Shown: positions 1 to 19,092 of the stretch, in pieces
Numbering within the stretch: the first letter of the stretch is position 1
Layout: every line of letters starts with the position of its first letter
Virus record (IMG/VR): IMGVR_UViG_3300037489_000046
Location: 1 to 21,458 of that record
Origin: a virus
Direction: 5' to 3' (one strand)
Length of the DNA stretch: 21,458 nt
The notes under the pieces: generated by a model
The model's input: the letters and a program-made list of their open reading frames with translations, nothing else
Databases searched by the model: none
Told to the model about the DNA's origin: nothing
Made by a program: the position numbers and the translations under genes

Positions 1-1317
1 CTTAATCCGCTCATAGACTTTGGCAATAGCGATATTCGATTGAGCATCGACTGTTATCGAATAAGGTTCTGCTGTTCCCGTGTTATCATGATCGACAGTC
101 GTATGCCCAATAGTTATGGTGACATTCCCGCCTTCACCGGAAGTCGTATCTGTCGGCCCACCAAGATTTACGCCAACCGTTCCGGTGGTTGCATCAAAAT
201 CACCATCGGCCAGGGTTGTGAAATCATACTCTGTGATCGCCGTAGTGCTACCAATATCGGTCAAATCACCGACCAGATAGTATTCGAGATCGGTATTACC
301 GTTTGTCTCAGTAATTACGCCTTTGGCTGTTGCTGTGGCCCACGTACCTCCAACATAGATGCCATTCCCGACTGTGGCTGTTCCTGTAATTCCAGATAGA
401 GTCCCGGTAGTACGATAACCCGTTGTGTTATTAATGTCTGGAGCAGATGCTAACGGAAGTGCTGAGAATCCACCTGCTGCAACATTTAGCCGGAAATTAT
501 CATACAAAGAGCCGTATTTATGGGCAAAGACTTCTATATCACCCGATGCTATCTGCACTCCTGAGTCTCTTGTAGTCACAAGAATGGATATGATCCCAAG
601 TGAAACGTCTGGATCGGTAGTCCACCATTGGAAAGTATTTGTAGCGGCATCCGTTAACTTAATTCTATCTTGTATAGCATAGACATCAGTAGCTGCTGGA
701 ACACTACCAATCGCTTGAATAGCAACATGATCGGTCTGTCCTGAAATACCGGCAACACTCGTTGCAGTCACACCTACACCACCGACTACTGTAATTATGC
801 CTGTCCCGTCAAAAATATCACCCGTTCCAGGTGTTGAGTCATCTGGCCTTACCCACATAACCAAAGAACCGTCTGGATCGGTATCAAAATCCAACAATGT
901 GCCAGTATCTAGCGTAGTTGCTTGCGATACTTGCCTTCCTATGTCCCCAGAATCAAGGGGTGTATCGTCAGTATACCCGACCTTCAATACACCCCGCCCC
1001 GAGTCATTCCCGGCAGATCCAACAAGAGAATAATCTGCCTTAATCGTCCCTTCTTTCAGAAACTCTTTTGAAGTCCTTGAAATAAAAGCCTTATTCTCCA
1101 GCGTGTATTCATTTGGTGTTACTGGAAGTATCGGGTTTTTAAACCCCATCGCCGTAAATTCATCAAGTGTAGCCGCAGCATCTGAATAAAGCGCATTAGT
1201 CGTGATAACAGCGCCGGATATATATACAAACATCCGTGTCCCGGTAACGCCTGAGCCTACCGTTTCATCCTCAAACTGGTATTCCCAGGTTCCGCCAAGT
1301 AGAGATAATGTAGTCAT
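1..1317 (-). CDS. Fibre-like phage structural protein, C-terminus cut by window edge
   Basis: Open frame of 439 codons from an ATG at 1317 to the left edge with no stop, so the gene continues outside the window. The product starts MTTLSLLGGTWEYQFEDE and is rich in Thr, Gly, Ser, Asp and short alternating hydrophobic stretches, as in beta-structured phage tail fibre or baseplate-decoration proteins. No signal peptide, membrane segment or enzyme motif is visible. A purine-rich AGAGGAC lies just ahead of the ATG, and the upstream fibre-like gene stops 11 bases earlier, so the two are probably co-transcribed. A role in host adsorption is inferred from composition and position; I do not recognise a specific family. 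Confidence 0.85.
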   Translation of the reverse strand, partial: MTTLSLLGGTWEYQFEDETVGSGVTGTRMFVYISGAVITTNALYSDAAATLDEFTAMGFKNPILPVTPNEYTLENKAFISRTSKEFLKEGTIKADYSLVGSAGNDSGRGVLKVGYTDDTPLDSGDIGRQVSQATTLDTGTLLDFDTDPDGSLVMWVRPDDSTPGTGDIFDGTGIITVVGGVGVTATSVAGISGQTDHVAIQAIGSVPAATDVYAIQDRIKLTDAATNTFQWWTTDPDVSLGIISILVTTRDSGVQIASGDIEVFAHKYGSLYDNFRLNVAAGGFSALPLASAPDINNTTGYRTTGTLSGITGTATVGNGIYVGGTWATATAKGVITETNGNTDLEYYLVGDLTDIGSTTAITEYDFTTLADGDFDATTGTVGVNLGGPTDTTSGEGGNVTITIGHTTVDHDNTGTAEPYSITVDAQSNIAIAKVYERIK

Positions 1318-1328
1318 TGTTTTGTCCT

Positions 1329-4300
1329 CTAGTCTGTATCTACAAATTTAGAAATTGTATCTTCCTGCCATGAAGCGATATCGGATAATCCTGTTCCAGA
1401 TACTATAACCCTTTCTGCGGTATATGGAAGATATCGAGTAACATCCAAAACAGCATTTGATCCAATAGGAACCTGTGTAATTGTCCCTGCCGTTGATAAT
1501 CTTGCTCTAACGTAATATAGCGGGCCTTGTGAATTAACTGTTGTTGTGGCCCAATCTCCAGGTAAAGTAAACGTCACTAATCCCTGCCCTAATGTCTCAA
1601 AGCCACTCGTGCCATCAGACACCCCGGATAGTGATACCCATGCACCGTTCCAATACTCCCATGTTATTGTTGGTTGAACCGAGAACGTAAGTACAGTGCT
1701 AACCGTTAATTTTAATCTTGAAAATTGCTCATTATGAGCGAGGTAATAAGCGTCATTAACTATAGGCACAGCAGGTAACAGGGTCATATCTGCTGTTGTA
1801 TTTGAACTTGCTTCTTCGGTCTCATCAGTAAAGGCTGGGGTATCTTCCGCTATAGCCGCTACAGCAACACCCTGATTCCTTGCGCTTGTTATAACATCAA
1901 GCCCAGAAGGGTCGAAAGCACCCTCATAATTAAAGTCGGTTATTTCATATTCGCCAGTGCTATCAGCAAAACCAGAGGCTATAACATCGCCTTCGGTGAT
2001 TGATCCCACTGTCTCATTCGCTATGATCGTGATACTTGTTCCTTCTGTAACACCACTAACTCCTGCGGGTACCGCATTTGTAACAACTGTCGTTGCACCA
2101 ACAGCATTTCTGAATGAAGGCGGATCGCCCGCCGTCACACCTATCGTCAGTGTTCCGCTTGATGTGCTGTTATAAACAGCCGCATTCGCTGAATATAAGC
2201 TATGGGTTTCGCTACCATTCGTTGTAAGATTAATCGCTGCTGTACTCGCTATCGCCGAAGCTCTTGTTAGATGAACTGTCACCGTGTCTGTATCTATAAC
2301 GTCCACATAATACTTAGTATCATCTGTAAGACCGATAGCCGCTGTTCCGCCTTCTTTATTGTAATAAACAGCGTCTCCAGCAGTAAATCCATGGGCTGCA
2401 TCGGTGTTTAAGTTTTCACTGGTAAATGCCTGGGCTGTTGAGAAGTTCCAACCTGTGTCTGCGGGAACCCAGTATCCAGATAAAGAGTTATCCCAATTTT
2501 CAGAAGTGGCAGCCATCATCTCTATGGCATGTCCGTACTGTTCAGCAGTAAATGAACAGCCTGTGATTAGATCGAGATCGTCAGTAACGGTTAACCCCTC
2601 TCCTTCTTCAGTCGATTGGCCTGATATATTAGAATCCGTAAGTGTTCCGCCGTTTAGTAGAATCTTGCCAATTCCGACAATATTGCTTGAGATGTCTACT
2701 CCGGTATAGCTTGAAATCCGTCTGGCATTAAGTATTGATCCACCAATTAAGTCGGCATCACCTGAAGCGACAAATGAAGTTATTGTGGTATCGTCAGCAG
2801 AGTATGGATCGGCATTATCTACCCCATTCGTCGCCACCCAGCTACCGCTCAAGGTCTGAACTTCCAATACACTACCGCTGATCCCTCTGACGATTCCTAC
2901 GCCATCATTTCCAGAGTCTCCATCCCCGGTAATTGGGCCACCCACGACAAAATTAGTCGCACTGGCTACAGTCATCGAGATTGTGACTGATATATCCGGT
3001 CGGGTGTCTGGTTGTCTTGCTAAACTGTGGTTCTCACGGCTTGCGCCATCTGAAAGCCCTATACCGCCATTTGTCGATTCGATGGAGGAAATAGTCGTAT
3101 CGTCAGACGAATAAGGGATTTGATTGTCTACACCATTACCAGATACCCAAGAACCAGTTAGGGTATATACAGTGACATCATTACTCGTTACTCCGACGAC
3201 GATACCTTCACCATCATTACCACCGTCACCATCTCCAGCTATTTCTGTGCCATAAGTAAACGAGGAAGCATCTGCCAAGACAAGTCTTACATCTCCCTTT
3301 TGCGCTGCCCATCTTCCATCGCTTAGGGCTATCGCATCATCTGTGACTTTTATTACATAATAAGCAGTCGCATCAGTCAAACCACCAATAGCATTGGAGC
3401 CACCTTCATCGGAATATAAAACAGGATTGCCTGTCTCCCATCCATGAGAAGTTATATCTATTTCATTATTAGCAGCATCGACACTCGAAATATTATCAAT
3501 GTAATGCTTGCTTCCAGACGCACCCGTGCCAACTATTGTATTATCAGTCAAATCAGTATTATTAGAGGCATTCCCCAATCCAAGAACAAGTCCCGTATGT
3601 CCTGCATCTGTCAGTCCTGGTTCAAATACAATAACTTTGTTTGAATCTGCAAAAGCAGTTAATGTGCTATTGCCTATTGTCAGTGTGCCAGCACAATATA
3701 ATACCCCGCTTCTGGAAGAAATTAAGCCATATCTATTAGCAATAGTCCCTTCGTCATAATCTATAAAATCCTGAAAAACACTACTCGTTCCAGTTATAGT
3801 TAATCCTGTTCCTGATGTAAGATAGTCAACTGCATCAATGGCAACATTGTCATCACGTACTGTTGTTGACATCATGCCTTCAACTGCATAGTAATCAATA
3901 GCCGTCAATGATGGTGTGCCTGTTGTCTCGTCTACCCATTCGGTTACGTTTGGATCGATAGGAACTATCTGCCAGCCGCCTGCTGCCGGGTAAGTGTCAC
4001 TCCCATGAATATAATAAAGTTGAAAATTGCTTTGATCGCTCCCGATACGGTTATTAAGACCACCAGTGATAAGTTGATCGGAGGAAGGATCGTTTTTGCC
4101 CCTTTCCAATAAAACACCAATGGTCGTGATTAAGTCTTTGAATATGACCACACGTTTTGGGGAGGTATAATCAACAGTCGAGGCATGTTCATATTCAGAA
4201 CCATCCACACTTGTCGTAGCTTTAATTGAAATAGAGCCGGTATTCTGATAAAAGAAGTCGTTATTCAACAAGGCTTTCGTTGAGGTATCGAGTTTATCCC

Positions 4301-4358: not shown

Positions 4359-4798
4359 TAGACTGAACTCCCGGCAATTCTTTGGATTCGTCTCTCATAG
4401 AAGTCCAGTACAATAACGGGTCTGTCCATAGACTTAGAAAAGCGATCAATAACCTCTTGAGCTTCTTGGGTCTCCTGGTGTTTGTGCTTTAATGGTTTAG
4501 CTTCAACAGAGTTTAAAATCCCATGAGAACAATCAAACAGCATCAAAGATTTATCAGGCCGGTCTCCTTCGTCTCCGAAACCAGCCAACCATGCACAACG
4601 GTATTCACTACACATCTTGGGTTGGTGGTCGTATATCTTGCAGTTATTACAAGATTTCCCTGTGTATTCCTTTACCCTGTCGTTTTCAGGAATAACCACG
4701 TCCAGGTGCTTACAATGCACCATGGCGTCCTTTTTCAGTTCTGGGTCGTCAATGCGCTGGTAAACACAGCAAACAACGCATTCACCGCAAGACCTCAT
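4358..4798 (-). CDS. YkgJ-like cysteine-cluster (Zn/Fe-chelating) protein
   Basis: A 146-aa protein with a dense Cys pattern: C4, C7, C10, C11 (CGECVVCC), C29 in HCKHL, C50 and C53 (CNNC), C63, C68 and C90. The N-terminal CxxCxxCC followed by CxHL and a later CxxxxCxW is the pattern of the YkgJ / zinc- or iron-chelating domain family, whose biochemical role is poorly known. The C-terminal 50 residues are Lys/Glu-rich without further Cys. I chose the ATG at 4798 because it makes a 4-base ATGA overlap with the upstream stop and follows GGTGGAG; an in-frame ATG at 4810 would add four residues but lacks a spaced Shine-Dalgarno site. It lies between two tail/fibre-region genes, which is unexpected for a soluble metalloprotein. 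Confidence 0.85.
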   Translation of the reverse strand: MRSCGECVVCCVYQRIDDPELKKDAMVHCKHLDVVIPENDRVKEYTGKSCNNCKIYDHQPKMCSEYRCAWLAGFGDEGDRPDKSLMLFDCSHGILNSVEAKPLKHKHQETQEAQEVIDRFSKSMDRPVIVLDFYERRIQRIAGSSV

Positions 4799-5781
4799 AT
4801 CTCCACCCATCCTGTGCCGGTCTCGTAATAAGCGATCAGTGAATCATCAGACCAATCGTATACCTCCCATCTGTTTTCGTCACTATTCCAGTGGAAAATC
4901 ATGTCTTCATGGTCAAGCGTTGAGCCATCGAAAATCCATCGCATGTCATCCAAGTCACTACTTCCCATAGAAGCACGATACTCTTCCATGGCGCTATAGG
5001 CCGTAATGGAATTGGCCCATCGTCTAGCAGTCGTCCCGGTCTTTGCTGCCCGGCAGTTTCCTATTGAGGGTCTAATTAGATAAGTTTCGTGAATCGTGAC
5101 ATTCGAGGCTGCTGTGCCACCTGTCGTTCCATCACGCTGACCACTAGTGTGTTCGCTCTGAACAGTGCCTGCCGTGTCTTCTAATGGGCCATTGGAGCCA
5201 AAAGCACAACTATGGTAGGTCTCAGCCTTGGTCGTAGTAACGGCTGTTCCTGTCGTCGGATTGGTTGTAGAGGTCTGGGCATTCCTAGATCCAACGTCTT
5301 TTGGGCCTGCGCCGTCGATTTCAGTACAATAACAAGCCCTGGCATTCAGGTTAGAGGGCCATGTGATCGTCGGGGTTCTGGAGTTTGAACCACCAATCAC
5401 CCCGCGCCATTTCTCTGTCGTCAGAGTGGAATTTGTCTCTGTAGTACGTGATAGAGCGACTAATTTAAGGGCGCGAGTCCCGAAAGTCACACCTGATGGA
5501 TGCTCTGCGGCTGTTCCTGTGCCACTTCCTACACCTGTGGCGGTGAACTTTGTTCCAGGGTTACTGTCGGCAGCTCCAATCAGGGTAAAGTCAGTCGTTC
5601 CAGTAGTTAAGATTGTATAATCATTACCTATGGTGAACGATCCTGCCGTCACGGAGCTTAGATAAGTAAACCCAACTTCAAGTAGCGATCCAGCCGTGAC
5701 TGAGAAAGCCGATGGGCTTAATGTAGTCCCTGCTGTTTTAGCAATCGCGGTTCCTTTTACTGTACGTGTAAAGTTTGTCAC
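4795..5781 (-). CDS. Phage structural protein with an inserted GTTDFT-type module (328 aa)
   Basis: Starts with GTG at 5781, preceded by AAGGA six bases upstream. Residues 1-44 and 92-328 read as one Thr/Ser/Gly-rich beta protein (the TAGSLLEVGFTYLS and HPSGVTFGTRALKL stretches), interrupted by residues 45-91, a module with GNDYTI, GTTDFTLIGA and FTATGVGSGTGTA. That module is one I know as widespread in phage tail and virion proteins. The C-terminal 60 residues are acidic and aromatic (MRWIFDG, WNSDENRWEVYDW). No enzyme motif is visible. Its stop overlaps the start of the Cys-cluster gene. A surface-exposed virion role is inferred. Confidence 0.8.
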   Translation of the reverse strand: MTNFTRTVKGTAIAKTAGTTLSPSAFSVTAGSLLEVGFTYLSSVTAGSFTIGNDYTILTTGTTDFTLIGAADSNPGTKFTATGVGSGTGTAAEHPSGVTFGTRALKLVALSRTTETNSTLTTEKWRGVIGGSNSRTPTITWPSNLNARACYCTEIDGAGPKDVGSRNAQTSTTNPTTGTAVTTTKAETYHSCAFGSNGPLEDTAGTVQSEHTSGQRDGTTGGTAASNVTIHETYLIRPSIGNCRAAKTGTTARRWANSITAYSAMEEYRASMGSSDLDDMRWIFDGSTLDHEDMIFHWNSDENRWEVYDWSDDSLIAYYETGTGWVEI

Positions 5782-5795
5782 GCTGGTTCCTTTAA

Positions 5796-6038
5796 TTATG
5801 GATAACTCAGCGTTTCCCGGTCATCCCATACGTTATCAAATGACCCGCTTCCTTTTGCCCACTTAAAGATGGAGCCAGTCGTATCATCAATTTGCAGTAT
5901 TTGCCACTTAGCCTCACTTGTCGGTGTAGATGGCTTTGCTTTTCCAATATAGGAGATGTTCGCATCTGTACTCTTCACCTGAATATCAATAGTCAGGTTA
6001 GCTGTATTAACATCCGTTATCCGAACATCCCTGGACAT
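5796..6038 (-). CDS. Small phage structural-region protein (80 aa)
   Basis: An 80-aa protein ending FDNVWDDRETLSYP, with a KWQILQID strand and a TGSIFKWAKG loop. This WQI...W..R..L.YP layout is one I associate with small conserved proteins in phage structural operons, of unknown role. The start at 6038 is two bases after the stop of the upstream 213-aa gene; the Shine-Dalgarno site is weak, so translation may be coupled to that gene. No Cys, membrane segment or coiled coil. Confidence 0.75.
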   Translation of the reverse strand: MSRDVRITDVNTANLTIDIQVKSTDANISYIGKAKPSTPTSEAKWQILQIDDTTGSIFKWAKGSGSFDNVWDDRETLSYP

Positions 6039-6040
6039 GG

Positions 6041-6682
6041 TCAGCAGTCCGTTTGGGTCAAATAGATCTGGGTCTCTGCCGTGTTCGTGTATGAGTTATA
6101 AATCAATCTGACTCCGGTAGCCCCTGCCGCTGATGATGAGGTCGTATCTGCCGTCTTACTGGCTAAGGCGGTTATATCTACCCATAGACGAATCTGATCG
6201 AGGTCTTGAATAGGAACAAACGTCTCCTGAACGGTAAAGTTCAATGTACCAGTCACATCGACAGTAATGTTAGCGCCATTCTCTGAACGCCAGTTAAGCG
6301 GGATGGTTTGACCCGATACTTCGTCAACAGTGCCGATATCTACAGTAGAGCCAGCTACAGGGCTTGCTATAGCCACACTTGTAACTGTTAGGAAATATTC
6401 ATCAAGCTCAACAGATGCACCAGACCCAGGCCCGGCCCTGGACGCAACCTTAACCCGTCCATCCACATCGGTTCCGGTGAAGGTATAGGTCGCTGTGGTT
6501 TGGTTATGAGCACCAGCATCAGTGATAACGAATTGACGGCCTAATCCATCGGCAGAGGTAAACGTACCGCCAGAGGTCAAGGTGCCGTCTAATGTAACGG
6601 TAGCGCCAGCACTTGTATTCCCATCGGCCAAACCGTCAGCAACAACATTAGCCGGGTCTATATCCAGTTTAATGGGCCTCAT
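6041..6682 (-). CDS. Beta-rich phage structural protein (213 aa)
   Basis: Begins MRPIKLDIDPANVVADGLAD and is dominated by Gly, Thr, Ala and Val, with repeated short strands (ATVTLDGTLTSGGTFTSAD). The C-terminal part carries ETFVPIQDLDQIRLWVDITA and ends in Cys. The composition suits a head-decoration, neck or tail-tube-like virion protein, but I cannot assign a family. The start overlaps the stop of the upstream coiled-coil gene as ATGA, which suggests coupled expression. Confidence 0.75.
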   Translation of the reverse strand: MRPIKLDIDPANVVADGLADGNTSAGATVTLDGTLTSGGTFTSADGLGRQFVITDAGAHNQTTATYTFTGTDVDGRVKVASRAGPGSGASVELDEYFLTVTSVAIASPVAGSTVDIGTVDEVSGQTIPLNWRSENGANITVDVTGTLNFTVQETFVPIQDLDQIRLWVDITALASKTADTTSSSAAGATGVRLIYNSYTNTAETQIYLTQTDC

Positions 6683-7161
6683 GATAACTCTCCTGCTGTC
6701 GCCTGAATCTGACCCGCCCAGTCTTTCAAGCGGTCTTTCTCAGCTCTTAGATTAGCAAGCTTTTCCTCGTACTCTGAACGAAGCTGACCGACCTTTTCAC
6801 GCTCTTTCTCAAGAGATGAAACAGCCTTTTCTCTATCATCCAGCTCACTGACACGCTCATGAAACAGACTATTATCACTAGCGACCTTCGCTCTGTGGGC
6901 ATCTATCTGATTCGATAGCTCACCGACGTTCTCAAGGTGTTTATCCTCTCTACTGGAGATGGCATCCTCAAGCTTGCCTAGTCTAACGGACTCAGAAGTT
7001 CGCCAAGCGTCAATATTATCTATCTGGCGCTTCTTCTCGACTAGCTCCTTATACTCTTTAGACGCTGCCCTGACATCCTCAATAAGCTTTTTATACTCAT
7101 CAGGATTCGATAGAAAGTCTAGGAACGCGCCAAAGTTCTCGATCTGCTCTAACTTGTGCAT
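6679..7161 (-). CDS. Coiled-coil protein in the structural operon (160 aa)
   Basis: After a short N-terminal region (MHKLEQIENFGAFLDFL) nearly the whole protein is a charged heptad-type helix, from about residue 22 to 150 (KLIEDVRAASKEYKELVEKK; REKVGQLRSEYEEKLANLR). It has no Cys, signal peptide or membrane segment. It is far too short for a tape-measure protein. Position between two beta-rich structural genes suggests a virion-assembly or scaffolding-type role, but this is inference. Confidence 0.75.
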   Translation of the reverse strand: MHKLEQIENFGAFLDFLSNPDEYKKLIEDVRAASKEYKELVEKKRQIDNIDAWRTSESVRLGKLEDAISSREDKHLENVGELSNQIDAHRAKVASDNSLFHERVSELDDREKAVSSLEKEREKVGQLRSEYEEKLANLRAEKDRLKDWAGQIQATAGELS

Positions 7162-7173
7162 GGCCAGCTCCTA

Positions 7174-7665
7174 TTAACTTGTTACTTCATCATAGATAAT
7201 AACGATATCGAAAACGGCTGTGTCTGAACCACCTGAACAAGTGTAAGAAACCGGGTCACCACCTGCCGTAATGTCAGGCATACGAGCTGCTGCTGTGGTT
7301 GTTTCAGTAATCTCATACAGTAAAACGCCACGAGTCACCGCGCCGTCAGCTAGAGAGCCGTAGACAAGCCCTGCATCATTCACCGAAGCCGCATCCAGAT
7401 AGCCGTCAGGGTCGTTAGATGTTCCTTGGGTGCCTACATCGACTGTTTCACCAGCATCAAGAGCGATAACATTCAGGAATACATCGTGAACAATGGCAGA
7501 GTCAGGCAGTGTAAAGCCTGTCTGTGTCTCTGATGTTTGTGCATCACAGCGAATTACTGCTGTCTTGCGTGTAAACTTGGTAGATGCTGAAGCCGCTGAT
7601 AGATAAGTGCTAGATCCATCATACTGCTTCCTTGTTGCTAATCCATGGGGATAATTAGTGCTCAT
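7174..7665 (-). CDS. Phage structural protein downstream of the capsid gene (163 aa)
   Basis: First gene after the capsid terminator. Starts MSTNYPHGLATRKQYDG. The middle contains LPDSAIVHDVFLNVIALDAG and VDVGTQGTSNDPDGYLDAASV, a layout I associate with small phage head or head-fibre proteins. The C-terminal half has TETTTAAARMPDITAGG and a terminal beta strand FDIVIIYDE. An AGGAG site lies seven bases before the ATG. Likely a minor virion protein; exact role unknown. Confidence 0.75.
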   Translation of the reverse strand: MSTNYPHGLATRKQYDGSSTYLSAASASTKFTRKTAVIRCDAQTSETQTGFTLPDSAIVHDVFLNVIALDAGETVDVGTQGTSNDPDGYLDAASVNDAGLVYGSLADGAVTRGVLLYEITETTTAAARMPDITAGGDPVSYTCSGGSDTAVFDIVIIYDEVTS

Positions 7666-7707
7666 TTCATTCTCCTAACAGTTTTCACCAGCCCGAGGGC
7701 CATTAGG

Positions 7708-7726
7708 GAAAGGGGCCGAAGCCCCT
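7708..7726 (-). terminator. UUCG hairpin terminator after the major capsid gene
   Basis: On the minus strand AGGGGC-TTCG-GCCCCT forms a perfect 6-bp stem closed by a C(UUCG)G tetraloop, followed by TTCCC. It starts 5 bases after the capsid stop codon. The T-tract is short, so it may be partly leaky or also act as an mRNA 3' stabiliser, which would suit continued low expression of the tail genes. Confidence 0.75.
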
Positions 7727-7731
7727 AACAT

Positions 7732-8655
7732 TTAAACGCCTGCTGTGCCGTACAAGCCGCGAGCATCTGACCAGCCGACGGAATAACGTTCGTCAGCCTT
7801 AAAGCGAGCATTCGAGGTGCCGAAATCGTTATCCTGTCCAAATTCAACAGTTTGACGATTTTTGAATTTCACGCCATCCGGTGCATTAGTCTTAATGAAC
7901 CAGGCAGTGCTAGAGGTCAGATAGTTATTGACCATGTAGCCGCCTGGAAGCATTCCAGTAGAACGAAGCGCGTTGACGGCATTCTCAGCCGTATCGCTCT
8001 GTAGCGTGCTTTTGAGGATGCGCTCAGACTCAAACCCTAGTGCAGATGGTACGATCAACTTCATGCCTTTAAGCGCAATGCGTAGACCGCGAGGGTCAGT
8101 TGCATCACCAATCTGAATCAGCAAATCTTCCAAAGAAGCCTGAGACAAAGCAGCCGCCGTGCCTAAGATATTGGAAAAAGTAGTTGAATCAGAAGGGCCA
8201 TTTACATGATCTGAATCTAGAAGCTGTTGACCATCGCCGCCATCCATCACGTAAGAAGAGTTGAAGCCGCGATTGTACATATTCGCTACCACATTCTCCT
8301 TGGTCTGTTGCATGGAAAACGCCAAAGACCGTGCCCGGCGAGCAAACAAATCATATAGATTGTCCCTCAATGCCTCTTTCGTTGCGATAAAGCCCTTCGC
8401 ATAGGTCAGGTTTGGGTATTTGGGAGTGAAGCCTTCCTGTTGAGAGTCATAAGAAACGCCATCACCCTCTTGTTTAACAGGAGCTAATCCGAATCCTTCA
8501 AACTGTTGATCTAGCTCAAACGCTTTCTTGCTGCTTTCTTCATCTACAAGCATCGTCCACTGTGTTTCGTGAGCGTCATATGCTTGCCCGAATACATTTG
8601 CAACGCCTTCTTGTAAAAGGCGAGAAATGTTGCCTGTAGTAATTACACCAGCCAT
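7732..8655 (-). CDS. Major capsid protein, HK97-fold, Phage_capsid_4-like
   Basis: A 307-aa protein that I recognise as a major head protein of the Mu gpT-like / Phage_capsid_4 type. Supporting stretches are NISRLLQEGVANVFGQAY at the N-terminus, YPNLTYAKGFIATKEALRDN and FARRARSLAFSMQQTKENV (about 80-125, the spine-helix and E-loop region), NRGFNSS, and the C-terminal ARFKADERYSVGWSDARGL. The length is normal for an unfused capsid subunit. A strong AGGAG lies eight bases before the ATG. It follows the scaffold and decoration genes and is closed by its own terminator, as expected for the most abundant virion protein. Confidence 0.93.
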   Translation of the reverse strand: MAGVITTGNISRLLQEGVANVFGQAYDAHETQWTMLVDEESSKKAFELDQQFEGFGLAPVKQEGDGVSYDSQQEGFTPKYPNLTYAKGFIATKEALRDNLYDLFARRARSLAFSMQQTKENVVANMYNRGFNSSYVMDGGDGQQLLDSDHVNGPSDSTTFSNILGTAAALSQASLEDLLIQIGDATDPRGLRIALKGMKLIVPSALGFESERILKSTLQSDTAENAVNALRSTGMLPGGYMVNNYLTSSTAWFIKTNAPDGVKFKNRQTVEFGQDNDFGTSNARFKADERYSVGWSDARGLYGTAGV

Positions 8656-8667
8656 AATATCTCTCCT

Positions 8668-9237
8668 TTATACGCCGACAGCGCCGCCAGTTGTGGACTC
8701 GTTAATGCGTACAAGCAAAGTTGTACCGATGGCAGCAGGATAGGTCAAATCACCCGAATTCTTTACGCCAACGACACGAATTTGCTCAGTAGTGCTTGCA
8801 GCATTACCAGTTGCATTAACAGTCATGTTTGAATTAACCAGATTACCCGTAGCAGTAGCGGCAGTGATAACAGCGGGTAAGTTACCGCCTACGTCAGTCA
8901 GTGCGAATGTACCACCGGATGTTTCGGCTTCGTAGATAGTGTTGGGATCAACATTAACCTTAACAGATCCACCAGTAGAAGCGGGTAAGCCGCTCTGCTC
9001 CAGATCTGAATAGTTGGGGTCGATTGATGTGATAACGCCGGTAATCAGATTACCAGTTCCAGCAGTAGACGCATCAACCTCAGAAAGACCAGTTGCAGCT
9101 TCGACATTGCCGGTTTCGGTGACTAAATCACCAACGCTTAGAAGGGTAGCATGCGTTGCATCTACCGCGAATGTTTGAATCTTCCCAGTGTAGGAACCAC
9201 CGGATAGATCCTGAATGGGACGAAATCCGCCAGCCAT
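8668..9237 (-). CDS. Capsid decoration-like protein (189 aa)
   Basis: Lies directly upstream of the capsid gene, 12 bases apart, after a 186-base leader carrying a strong Shine-Dalgarno site (CTGGAGGTTC). The protein is small, neutral, Thr/Gly/Val-rich and beta-like (FAVDATHATLLSVGDLVTET at about 23-42; TLLVRINEST near the end) with no Cys, coiled coil or membrane segment. Position and composition match head decoration or cement proteins. Function is inferred mainly from context. Confidence 0.78.
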   Translation of the reverse strand: MAGGFRPIQDLSGGSYTGKIQTFAVDATHATLLSVGDLVTETGNVEAATGLSEVDASTAGTGNLITGVITSIDPNYSDLEQSGLPASTGGSVKVNVDPNTIYEAETSGGTFALTDVGGNLPAVITAATATGNLVNSNMTVNATGNAASTTEQIRVVGVKNSGDLTYPAAIGTTLLVRINESTTGGAVGV

Positions 9238-9392
9238 AATGAACCTCCAGATATAATTTGCTAAAAAGTACCCTCTCGGGTTTCTAACAAATCAATCTGG
9301 CGTGCTAACCATGGCTTGATTTGGGGGTCTGAATACGTCTATACACAGCCCGCTTTCAATATTTTGGGCCAACTTTCGGCCACTTACCTCTA

Positions 9393-9421
9393 ATAGTAGC
9401 GAATGTCCGCTAACATTACAA
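9393..9421 (-). promoter_or_regulatory. Candidate capsid promoter with dyad in the spacer
   Basis: On the minus strand TTGTAA (9421-9416) and TACTAT (9398-9393) are separated by exactly 17 bases, each 4/6 to the sigma-70 consensus. The spacer and -10 edge hold two overlapping perfect inverted repeats, AATGT/ACATT and TAGCG/CGCTA. The rest of the 186-base gene-free stretch 9238-9423 has a short GAGA-loop hairpin followed by five T (9263-9281), too weak to call, and the Shine-Dalgarno site of the decoration gene. Prediction from sequence only. Confidence 0.4.
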
Positions 9422-9423
9422 GC

Positions 9424-9900
9424 CTACACTATGACCTCTCGCTCTAGTACGCCTTGTCTGTCTTTTGGTACATATTCGCCCTCTTTAAGCCTGGCGCTCT
9501 CAACAAGGTTATCATTAACGCGGTCTTGCTGTTTCTGTATGTCTTCATCGTAATACTGCTGAGGAATACGCATTAGATAATGAGTTTCACCGTTACCGGC
9601 TGGGGTTGTGATCTTCCTGCCATCCTTCTTGTCAGTGACAAACTCCCACCATGCCGCCTCGAATCGCTCTAAGTCACCAGGACGATCAACAGCCCAATAG
9701 TATTGAAATCCTGCTATTTTCAAGCTATCAGGAACATCAAGTTTCCCACCGGCACTCATTGATACTCTTGGGGCGCGTCCTTCCATCTTATGCTCTAGCC
9801 CTCTGGCATGTGGATCGCGCTCTGGGGTAGCTATCTCTGGAGCCGTAGTTTCCTGGATAACCTGTCTTGTTTTCTGTGTTTTCTGCTTCTGCTTGCTCAT
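9424..9900 (-). CDS. Conserved-looking head-region protein between scaffold and capsid (158 aa)
   Basis: Starts MSKQKQKTQKTRQ at 9900, one base after the upstream stop and preceded by AAAGGGGG; an in-frame ATG at 9927 would extend back into the scaffold gene without a site. The first 45 residues are basic and Gln/Lys-rich, then comes a compact aromatic domain (FQYYWAVDRPGDLERF, then AAWWEFVTD) and YLMRIPQQYYDED, and a charged helical C-terminus. I do not recognise a characterised family. Position between scaffold-like and decoration genes suggests a head-assembly role. Confidence 0.75.
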   Translation of the reverse strand: MSKQKQKTQKTRQVIQETTAPEIATPERDPHARGLEHKMEGRAPRVSMSAGGKLDVPDSLKIAGFQYYWAVDRPGDLERFEAAWWEFVTDKKDGRKITTPAGNGETHYLMRIPQQYYDEDIQKQQDRVNDNLVESARLKEGEYVPKDRQGVLEREVIV

Positions 9901-18231: not shown

Positions 18232-18424
18232 AGATGGCCTTCTCAAGTTTCTTATAGTCTTTTGGATCACCGAAATCCCTGATAAACTCTTGTATTGTGT
18301 ACGTTTTCAGCAAAATCTCTTTGTTAACAAGAGGATGCGTTTGTACATAAAGCTCCCCTAGATTCACTCCGCGTGATTTGTATTTATCCCGGTAGTTATT
18401 GACTGCTTTAGTTAATAGATTCAT
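18221..18424 (-). CDS. Hypothetical small protein (67 aa)
   Basis: The ATG overlaps the stop of the Tat-signal gene as ATGA. The product (MNLLTKAVNNYRDKYKSRG; EFIRDFGDPKDYKKLEKA) is mainly helical and charged with no Cys. Coupled translation with the exported protein is likely; a functional link is not shown. Not recognised. Confidence 0.65.
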   Translation of the reverse strand: MNLLTKAVNNYRDKYKSRGVNLGELYVQTHPLVNKEILLKTYTIQEFIRDFGDPKDYKKLEKAIYEG

Positions 18425-19023
18425 ATCGCCACCACAAGGCTATAATCATTAATTACTTCTTGTTCAAACTTAGTAGCATACTGTTCATCAACAGCGATAA
18501 ACTCTAGCTTTGTACCTACTGGCCATTGGATATAGGGTCTGATATATAAAGAATTATCTTTCCTATACATATTACCCATATACATATCATTATGGATGGC
18601 TTCGCCGTTTATGTATATTTCTGCTATATCATCAAGTCGCCACGATATTATTTGAATAGTTAAAATGCCCTCTATGTAACAACCTATCAACCCTTCTCTG
18701 CCGACAATATGCCAATCCTCGCTAAATCCAAATACTGAACTCCATTTTTTCTCAAAAATATCTCTGGAAATCGGTATCATCGGACTGCTTCGCACAACTC
18801 CATAACTGTCTTGATCTTGATAATCTTGTATCTTCCGGTATATATCTTCGCCATCTATACTGCCTGTGACGTGCATAATGCATTGCTTGAAATCCATCAA
18901 GACATTGCCATGCTCGCCCTCAATGCGGTATAGCCCCTCACCTTCACTCTTGGCTGATATGCTAGGAGCTGCTGTAATCGCTCCTGCTGCAAAAGTATGC
19001 TTTAAAAAGTCTCTTCTATTCAT
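18421..19023 (-). CDS. Protein with twin-arginine (Tat) signal peptide (200 aa)
   Basis: The N-terminus MNRRDFLKHTFAAGAITAAP matches the Tat motif (RR-x-F-L-K, Arg3-Arg4), followed by a hydrophobic h-region (about 9-22) and a likely cleavage site after A24 (SISA-KS). The mature part (about 176 aa) is beta-rich with two Cys (about 48 and 114), and has IDGEDIYRKIQDYQDQD, SSPMIPISRD and a C-terminal strand region. The IYxxxxxY...SPM...W layout recalls a small domain seen in some phage tail-associated proteins, a weak resemblance. A perfect AAGGAGG precedes the ATG. Export of a folded protein to the periplasm is inferred. Superinfection exclusion, lysis accessory or host-surface change are possible; no catalytic motif is seen. 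Confidence 0.75.
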   Translation of the reverse strand: MNRRDFLKHTFAAGAITAAPSISAKSEGEGLYRIEGEHGNVLMDFKQCIMHVTGSIDGEDIYRKIQDYQDQDSYGVVRSSPMIPISRDIFEKKWSSVFGFSEDWHIVGREGLIGCYIEGILTIQIISWRLDDIAEIYINGEAIHNDMYMGNMYRKDNSLYIRPYIQWPVGTKLEFIAVDEQYATKFEQEVINDYSLVVAI

Positions 19024-19033
19024 AACTCCTCCT

Positions 19034-19051
19034 TAAAAAGCTCCGGCTTTT
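19034..19051 (-). terminator. Weak hairpin between two accessory genes
   Basis: On the minus strand AAAAGC-CGGA-GCTTTT forms a 6-bp stem with only two G-C pairs, then one more T and AAGG. It lies in the 69-base leader of the Tat-signal gene, just before its Shine-Dalgarno site. Could be an attenuator or chance. Confidence 0.3.
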
Positions 19052-19092
19052 ACACCGGGGAACGCTCTAGCTACCGTTTAAATTCATTCATC

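Follow-up and report, generated by a model that had tools for sequence, protein, structure and literature searches.

Phage proteins that reach the host envelope, such as moron and superinfection-exclusion proteins, usually carry Sec signals or are membrane proteins, and in characterised phages Sec-type signals are known in both lysis and exclusion proteins. A Klebsiella phage study that applied SignalP-6 to all phage-encoded proteins identified no Tat motif in any of them (PMC13412088), and full-text literature searches found no paper having phage-encoded Tat substrates as its subject. The DNA analysed here, termed the window, is the complete IMG/VR virus record IMGVR_UViG_3300037489_000046 of 21,458 bases, itself a fragment of a phage genome, and it encodes a 200-aa protein (P0001) with a twin-arginine leader. 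In a set of 64 further virus records that had been retrieved for purposes other than the Tat question, the NCBIfam model TIGR01409 exceeded its cut-off in one, by a match in the interior of a 4412-aa frame (G047); in another (L011) it fell just short. This count and the Klebsiella survey bear out the claimed rarity of such leaders in phages. Comparison of leader peptides with annotated phages gave no match, in a search that has little power with 25-residue queries. In L011, the TerL region and the portal gene flank a 67-aa ORF with a Tat-like leader (2712-2915, plus strand), and the stretch after its leader, DRARALALAMRRTKEQMAADIFNRAFG, resembles by eye part of the major head protein of the window. 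Tat-like leaders were also seen internal to very long phage ORFs of 4412 aa (L064, G047) and 931 aa (L116, 2327-5122).

The phage origin of the window was evident from TerS, TerL, portal, and major head protein being encoded on one record. Every likely gene reads from the minus strand. Profile searches of the window ORFs identified a NinG-like gene (20547-20008), which is followed by an HNH gene (19982-19350; phrog_4160, E=3e-35), a 74-aa gene, the Tat-leader orphan gene encoding P0001 (18421..19023), several small genes, and a DNA methyltransferase (16869-16231, by profile search). After the methyltransferase come, in order, the small terminase, large terminase, portal, GroES-like, scaffold-like, major head protein, and tail/baseplate genes. 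The GroES-like co-chaperonin (11090-10749; phrog_3188, E=6e-12), located between the portal and scaffold-like genes, was kept in the relatives L002, L004, and L023. A 150-aa cysteine-rich protein with CxxCxxCC and further cysteines (4810-4358, minus strand) overlaps tail/baseplate genes at both ends, and its only PHROG match, to an unknown family, is weak. At window positions 1317-3 (minus strand), an N-terminal tail-type domain, LYSxxMDxxDxxxxxDxxVPMSAQTPxEYTLINGW, was shared with L079-L091 and occurred in many IMG/VR contigs, while the members scanned had no PHROGs match and none was found in annotated phages.

The predicted ORF was found at its exact position on the minus strand, encoding 200 aa, and its codon-position G+C pattern was that of the neighbouring genes. 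The open frame reaches just three codons above the ATG at 19023, which is therefore the only plausible start. As predicted, the Shine-Dalgarno site is strong: AAGGAGG was read from the sequence at 19028..19034 (minus strand) with a 4-nt spacer to the ATG. By the ORF list, the stop of the Tat gene and the start of the downstream 67-aa gene (18424-18221) share the sequence ATGA at 18421..18424 (minus strand), an overlap that probably couples the two genes, such that they would be translated together. In the gap that separates the Tat gene from the gene upstream of it, a terminator-like hairpin (19043..19058, minus strand) folded no better than shuffles, the number of such hairpins being near chance, and no promoter-like site was found between it and the Shine-Dalgarno site of the Tat gene.

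The leader occupies residues 1-24, MNRRDFLKHTFAAGAITAAPSISA (18952..19023, minus strand), with its class taken from TIGR01409 and its cleavage point placed by eye. It scored 19.0 bits against TIGR01409, above the curated cut-off of 16.7, and 21.9 bits (E=7e-6) in a one-genome search, and it missed the 22.7 cut-off of Pfam PF10518 with a score of 17.5. The twin-arginine motif RRxF[L]K is present in the n-region (MNRRDFLK), where RRDFL matches the TatP motif RR.[FGAVML][LITMVF] as quoted in PMC6085387. Fifteen uncharged residues (T10-A24) follow the arginine pair and form a weakly hydrophobic h-region (best 12-mer, mean KD 1.44). Of the three-part Tat signal originally proposed, the RR motif and the hydrophobic stretch were recovered, and the candidate cleavage site, ISA|KS, is plausible yet not AxA. 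When the window was shuffled 150 times with a Markov model, a loose TatP-type pattern appeared somewhere in the six frames of 11 shuffles. The combination of RRxF[LIM]K with a hydrophobic stretch was reached by none of the 150. An origin by chance or artefact was rejected. On its motif and on one of the two curated profiles, the leader of P0001 is of Tat type.

Relatives were collected via the large terminase (44 loci, 35-74% identity). One of them, L003 (TerL 67% identical), has a short NinG-to-TerS interval with no Tat gene in that slot, and no gene of the segment that runs from the NinG-like gene to the small one preceding TerL was found in six larger relative records. The G+C content of the Tat gene was 39% compared with 47-48% for TerL, portal, and MCP. 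The Tat gene is accessory because it is absent from the L003 slot, its block was not found in the six larger relative records, and it is AT-richer than the core, in agreement with the accessory block that had been claimed.

The predicted exported body (residues 25-200; 18424..18951, minus strand) had no detectable relative. Consistent with the "unknown function" of the original prediction, it matched no family in Pfam, PHROGs, NCBIfam, or PDB. Further searches by tblastn in annotated phages and plasmids, by pattern scans of IMG/VR and GTDB genomes, and by a six-frame search of 14 related phage records likewise found none. One IMG/VR scan was weaker than it appears, with three of its six patterns spanning joints made in the query, and pattern scans detect close relatives only, so that more distant ones may exist. 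The same four databases gave no similarity to a known exclusion protein, no confident virion similarity was found in PHROGs, and the neighbour genes of the Tat gene had no match in annotated phages. AlphaFold2 gave unusable models both from the single sequence (pLDDT 37.4) and from an alignment that included tail-domain rows (pLDDT 41.6). Any role for P0001 must be inferred because its body has neither a relative nor a confident fold.

Exact MNRRDFLK starts were scanned in 2.9 million IMG/VR contigs, yielding 65 stretches (L092-L156) with 59 distinct ORFs of median length 135 aa, almost no two of which had related bodies. A hydrophobic, nearly uncharged stretch followed the motif in 56 of the 59, and Pfam TAT_signal was matched at E<=0.01 by 44 of 54 members scanned (window gene included). 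The retention of this stretch despite unrelated bodies indicates that selection maintains the leader. The recognisable bodies form two groups. Envelope-type enzymes or spikes are represented by a GDSL lipase (L124), a polysaccharide deacetylase (L129), and a beta-helix (L102), and virion or packaging proteins by gp23-type capsid homologues, a large terminase, and single PHROG matches to scaffolding and tail-spike families. Three ORFs with a strong Tat leader were gp23-type capsid homologues (L156, 4527-5630, minus strand; L149, 572-1612, plus strand; L122, 3160-3960, plus strand), with Pfam Gp23 E-values down to 5.8e-15 and TAT_signal at about 2e-8, and each was the only gp23 match found in its contig. 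A large terminase (L101, 838-2424, plus strand; phrog_2, E=1.5e-22) likewise starts with a leader of Tat type, and a GGAG site of its own, a good Shine-Dalgarno, precedes the leader start. A lipase or deacetylase makes sense as an exported protein, and a capsid or large terminase does not; because such virion and packaging proteins also bear the leader, its presence on a phage protein may not be a sure sign of export. Tat-type ORFs adjoin TerL or the portal gene in L011, L101, L105, and L116/L145. A second Tat-type ORF of L101 (3776-4042, plus strand) lies directly after a GroES-like gene. Almost leader-only ORFs were of two types, one of 31 aa (L135, 8227-8322, and L151) and one of 41 aa (L130, 1669-1794), possibly representing membrane peptides or Tat decoys. 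Contamination of IMG/VR with host DNA was largely rejected as a source of the other Tat ORFs for the loci examined; the same contigs carry terminase, portal, DNA polymerase, gp23, and a 16-tRNA array.

Multiple leaders per genome were identified by TIGR01409 in the jumbo-like, 84.5 kb contig IMGVR_UViG_3300018080_004888 (G052), with 13 Tat-type leaders, and in its 36.7 kb sister contig (G053), with six. G052 also encodes a gp23 homologue and a phage-type sigma factor, and its 16 tRNA genes form a single cluster. The Tat-leader gene arrays lie at 4524-9595 and 17756-18211 of L187 and 1-645 and 10330-15731 of L188 in G052, and at 1-3513 and 12738-13367 of L192 in G053. In nine aligned genes from the two contigs, the leaders (first 72 nt) were 81-94% DNA-identical in all but two, while the next 144 nt were 22-34% identical, which is the level of chance, except for one pair. 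Some bodies are paralogues or have shared sub-domains, and the common pattern is one leader with unrelated bodies. This points clearly to a swapped leader module, copied from gene to gene, in this group of large phages. The leader behaves as a functional unit in phages, because it is shared at this level of DNA identity while the bodies are unrelated. Literature searches, short of a full review, found no earlier description of leader swapping in phages, and the swapped module is a more surprising result than the single window gene.

Starting from the observed frame, leader class, accessory position, and orphan status, P0001 may be an accessory, moron-like phage protein that depends on host Tat for export and acts on the envelope, a reading whose chances we put at about even. 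It would be made in the infected cell, where its leader would be recognised by the host TatBC complex, and it would cross the inner membrane in a folded state. Cleavage after about residue 24 would then release a soluble product of roughly 176 aa acting in the periplasm or envelope, most likely to modify or shield the envelope of the infected cell through exclusion, lysis timing, or a surface change. This reading is favoured by the TIGR01409 score, the 0/150 shuffles, the strong Shine-Dalgarno, the absence from L003, the AT-richness, the hydrophobic stretch kept in 56 of 59 leader ORFs, the envelope enzymes under the same leader, and the sharing of leaders between otherwise unrelated genes in G052 and G053. 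Against it stand the PF10518 score, the non-AxA site, the orphan body, and the presence of the same leader on gp23-type and terminase proteins. The phage gene, Tat-type leader, variable block, and rarity of the original prediction held. For its suggested superinfection exclusion or receptor change no specific evidence was found, and the role of P0001 itself is one that we infer.

The leader could instead be a membrane-docking tag that keeps a body related to the virion or its assembly attached to the inner membrane with no periplasmic release. This is kept alive because capsid and terminase fusions exist elsewhere, with leaders of identical type on the gp23-type homologues and large terminase described above, and it gains from the Tat-type ORFs adjoining TerL or portal and from the internal leaders in the 931- and 4412-aa ORFs. 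It was nevertheless judged rather unlikely, since other bodies under the leader are envelope enzymes needing export, the body of the window gene lacks confident virion similarity, and rare recombination could have produced the capsid and terminase fusions. In another reading, also considered unlikely, uncultured phages would use Tat-type leaders as a mobile N-terminal targeting module that can be swapped between unrelated proteins, capsid and terminase homologues among them. The module would serve a non-secretory phage purpose, such as tethering assembly or decoy proteins to the inner membrane, and the window gene would be a single-copy member of this class. A leader that is inert or a chance N-terminus, leaving P0001 cytoplasmic like its small neighbours, would fit the absence of an assigned function in those neighbours and the passing of one of two curated Tat models; it is quite improbable given that no shuffle reproduced RRxFLK with a hydrophobic stretch and that many phage ORFs bear the leader, its hydrophobicity being kept in 56 of 59.

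The body, rather than the leader, is at issue in a derivation from a phage tail protein, in which residues about 45-85 would correspond to the N-terminal domain of the tail-type proteins at window 1317-3 and in IMG/VR L079-L091. The resemblance was first noticed by eye. Three profiles aligned the body in the same register (IMHVTGSIDGEDIYRKIQDYQDQ versus lkHnsGttrvtvnaLYsalmDlfDe), and MAFFT gave the same first-half register unprompted. The real score was reached by 96, 23, and 68 of 2000 shuffles with the three profiles, values that are not significant once the several profiles tried are allowed for. In a glocal test the match ranked second among 56 controls (z=2.97, 8/1000 shuffles), but some controls score equally high and hhalign gave no match. 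With the second-half register ambiguous, a pLDDT of 41.6 in AlphaFold2 even with the family rows, and the Tat gene far from the tail module, a tail origin has a slim chance. Envelope-directed export of P0001 was retained as the working interpretation.

If the leader works, phages would have a second export route, suited to folded cargo, and such leaders would be a simple handle for finding envelope-acting proteins among phage orphans. Whether leaders are transferable is a question that the jumbo-like contigs, with their arrays of shared leaders on unrelated bodies, open to direct testing. Compared with phage moron and superinfection-exclusion proteins, P0001 is alike in its accessory position, short ORF, atypical G+C, and predicted envelope location, but differs in its Tat-type leader, its lack of relation to any PHROGs family, and the absence of any sign of prophage expression. 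It shares with the bacterial Tat substrates described by TIGR01409 and PF10518 the RRDFLK motif, the 15 uncharged residues, and a short, cleavable-looking c-region, whereas it has N before RR where the classical motif has S/T, misses the Pfam cut-off, and is phage-encoded with an orphan body that has no redox-cofactor or known enzyme domain. It also resembles the other MNRRDFLK-leader ORFs, with which it has in common the first eight residues, the hydrophobic leader, the short length, and the phage context, although its body is unrelated to theirs (best phmmer E=1.3) and the window phage carries a single Tat-leader copy compared with 13 in G052.
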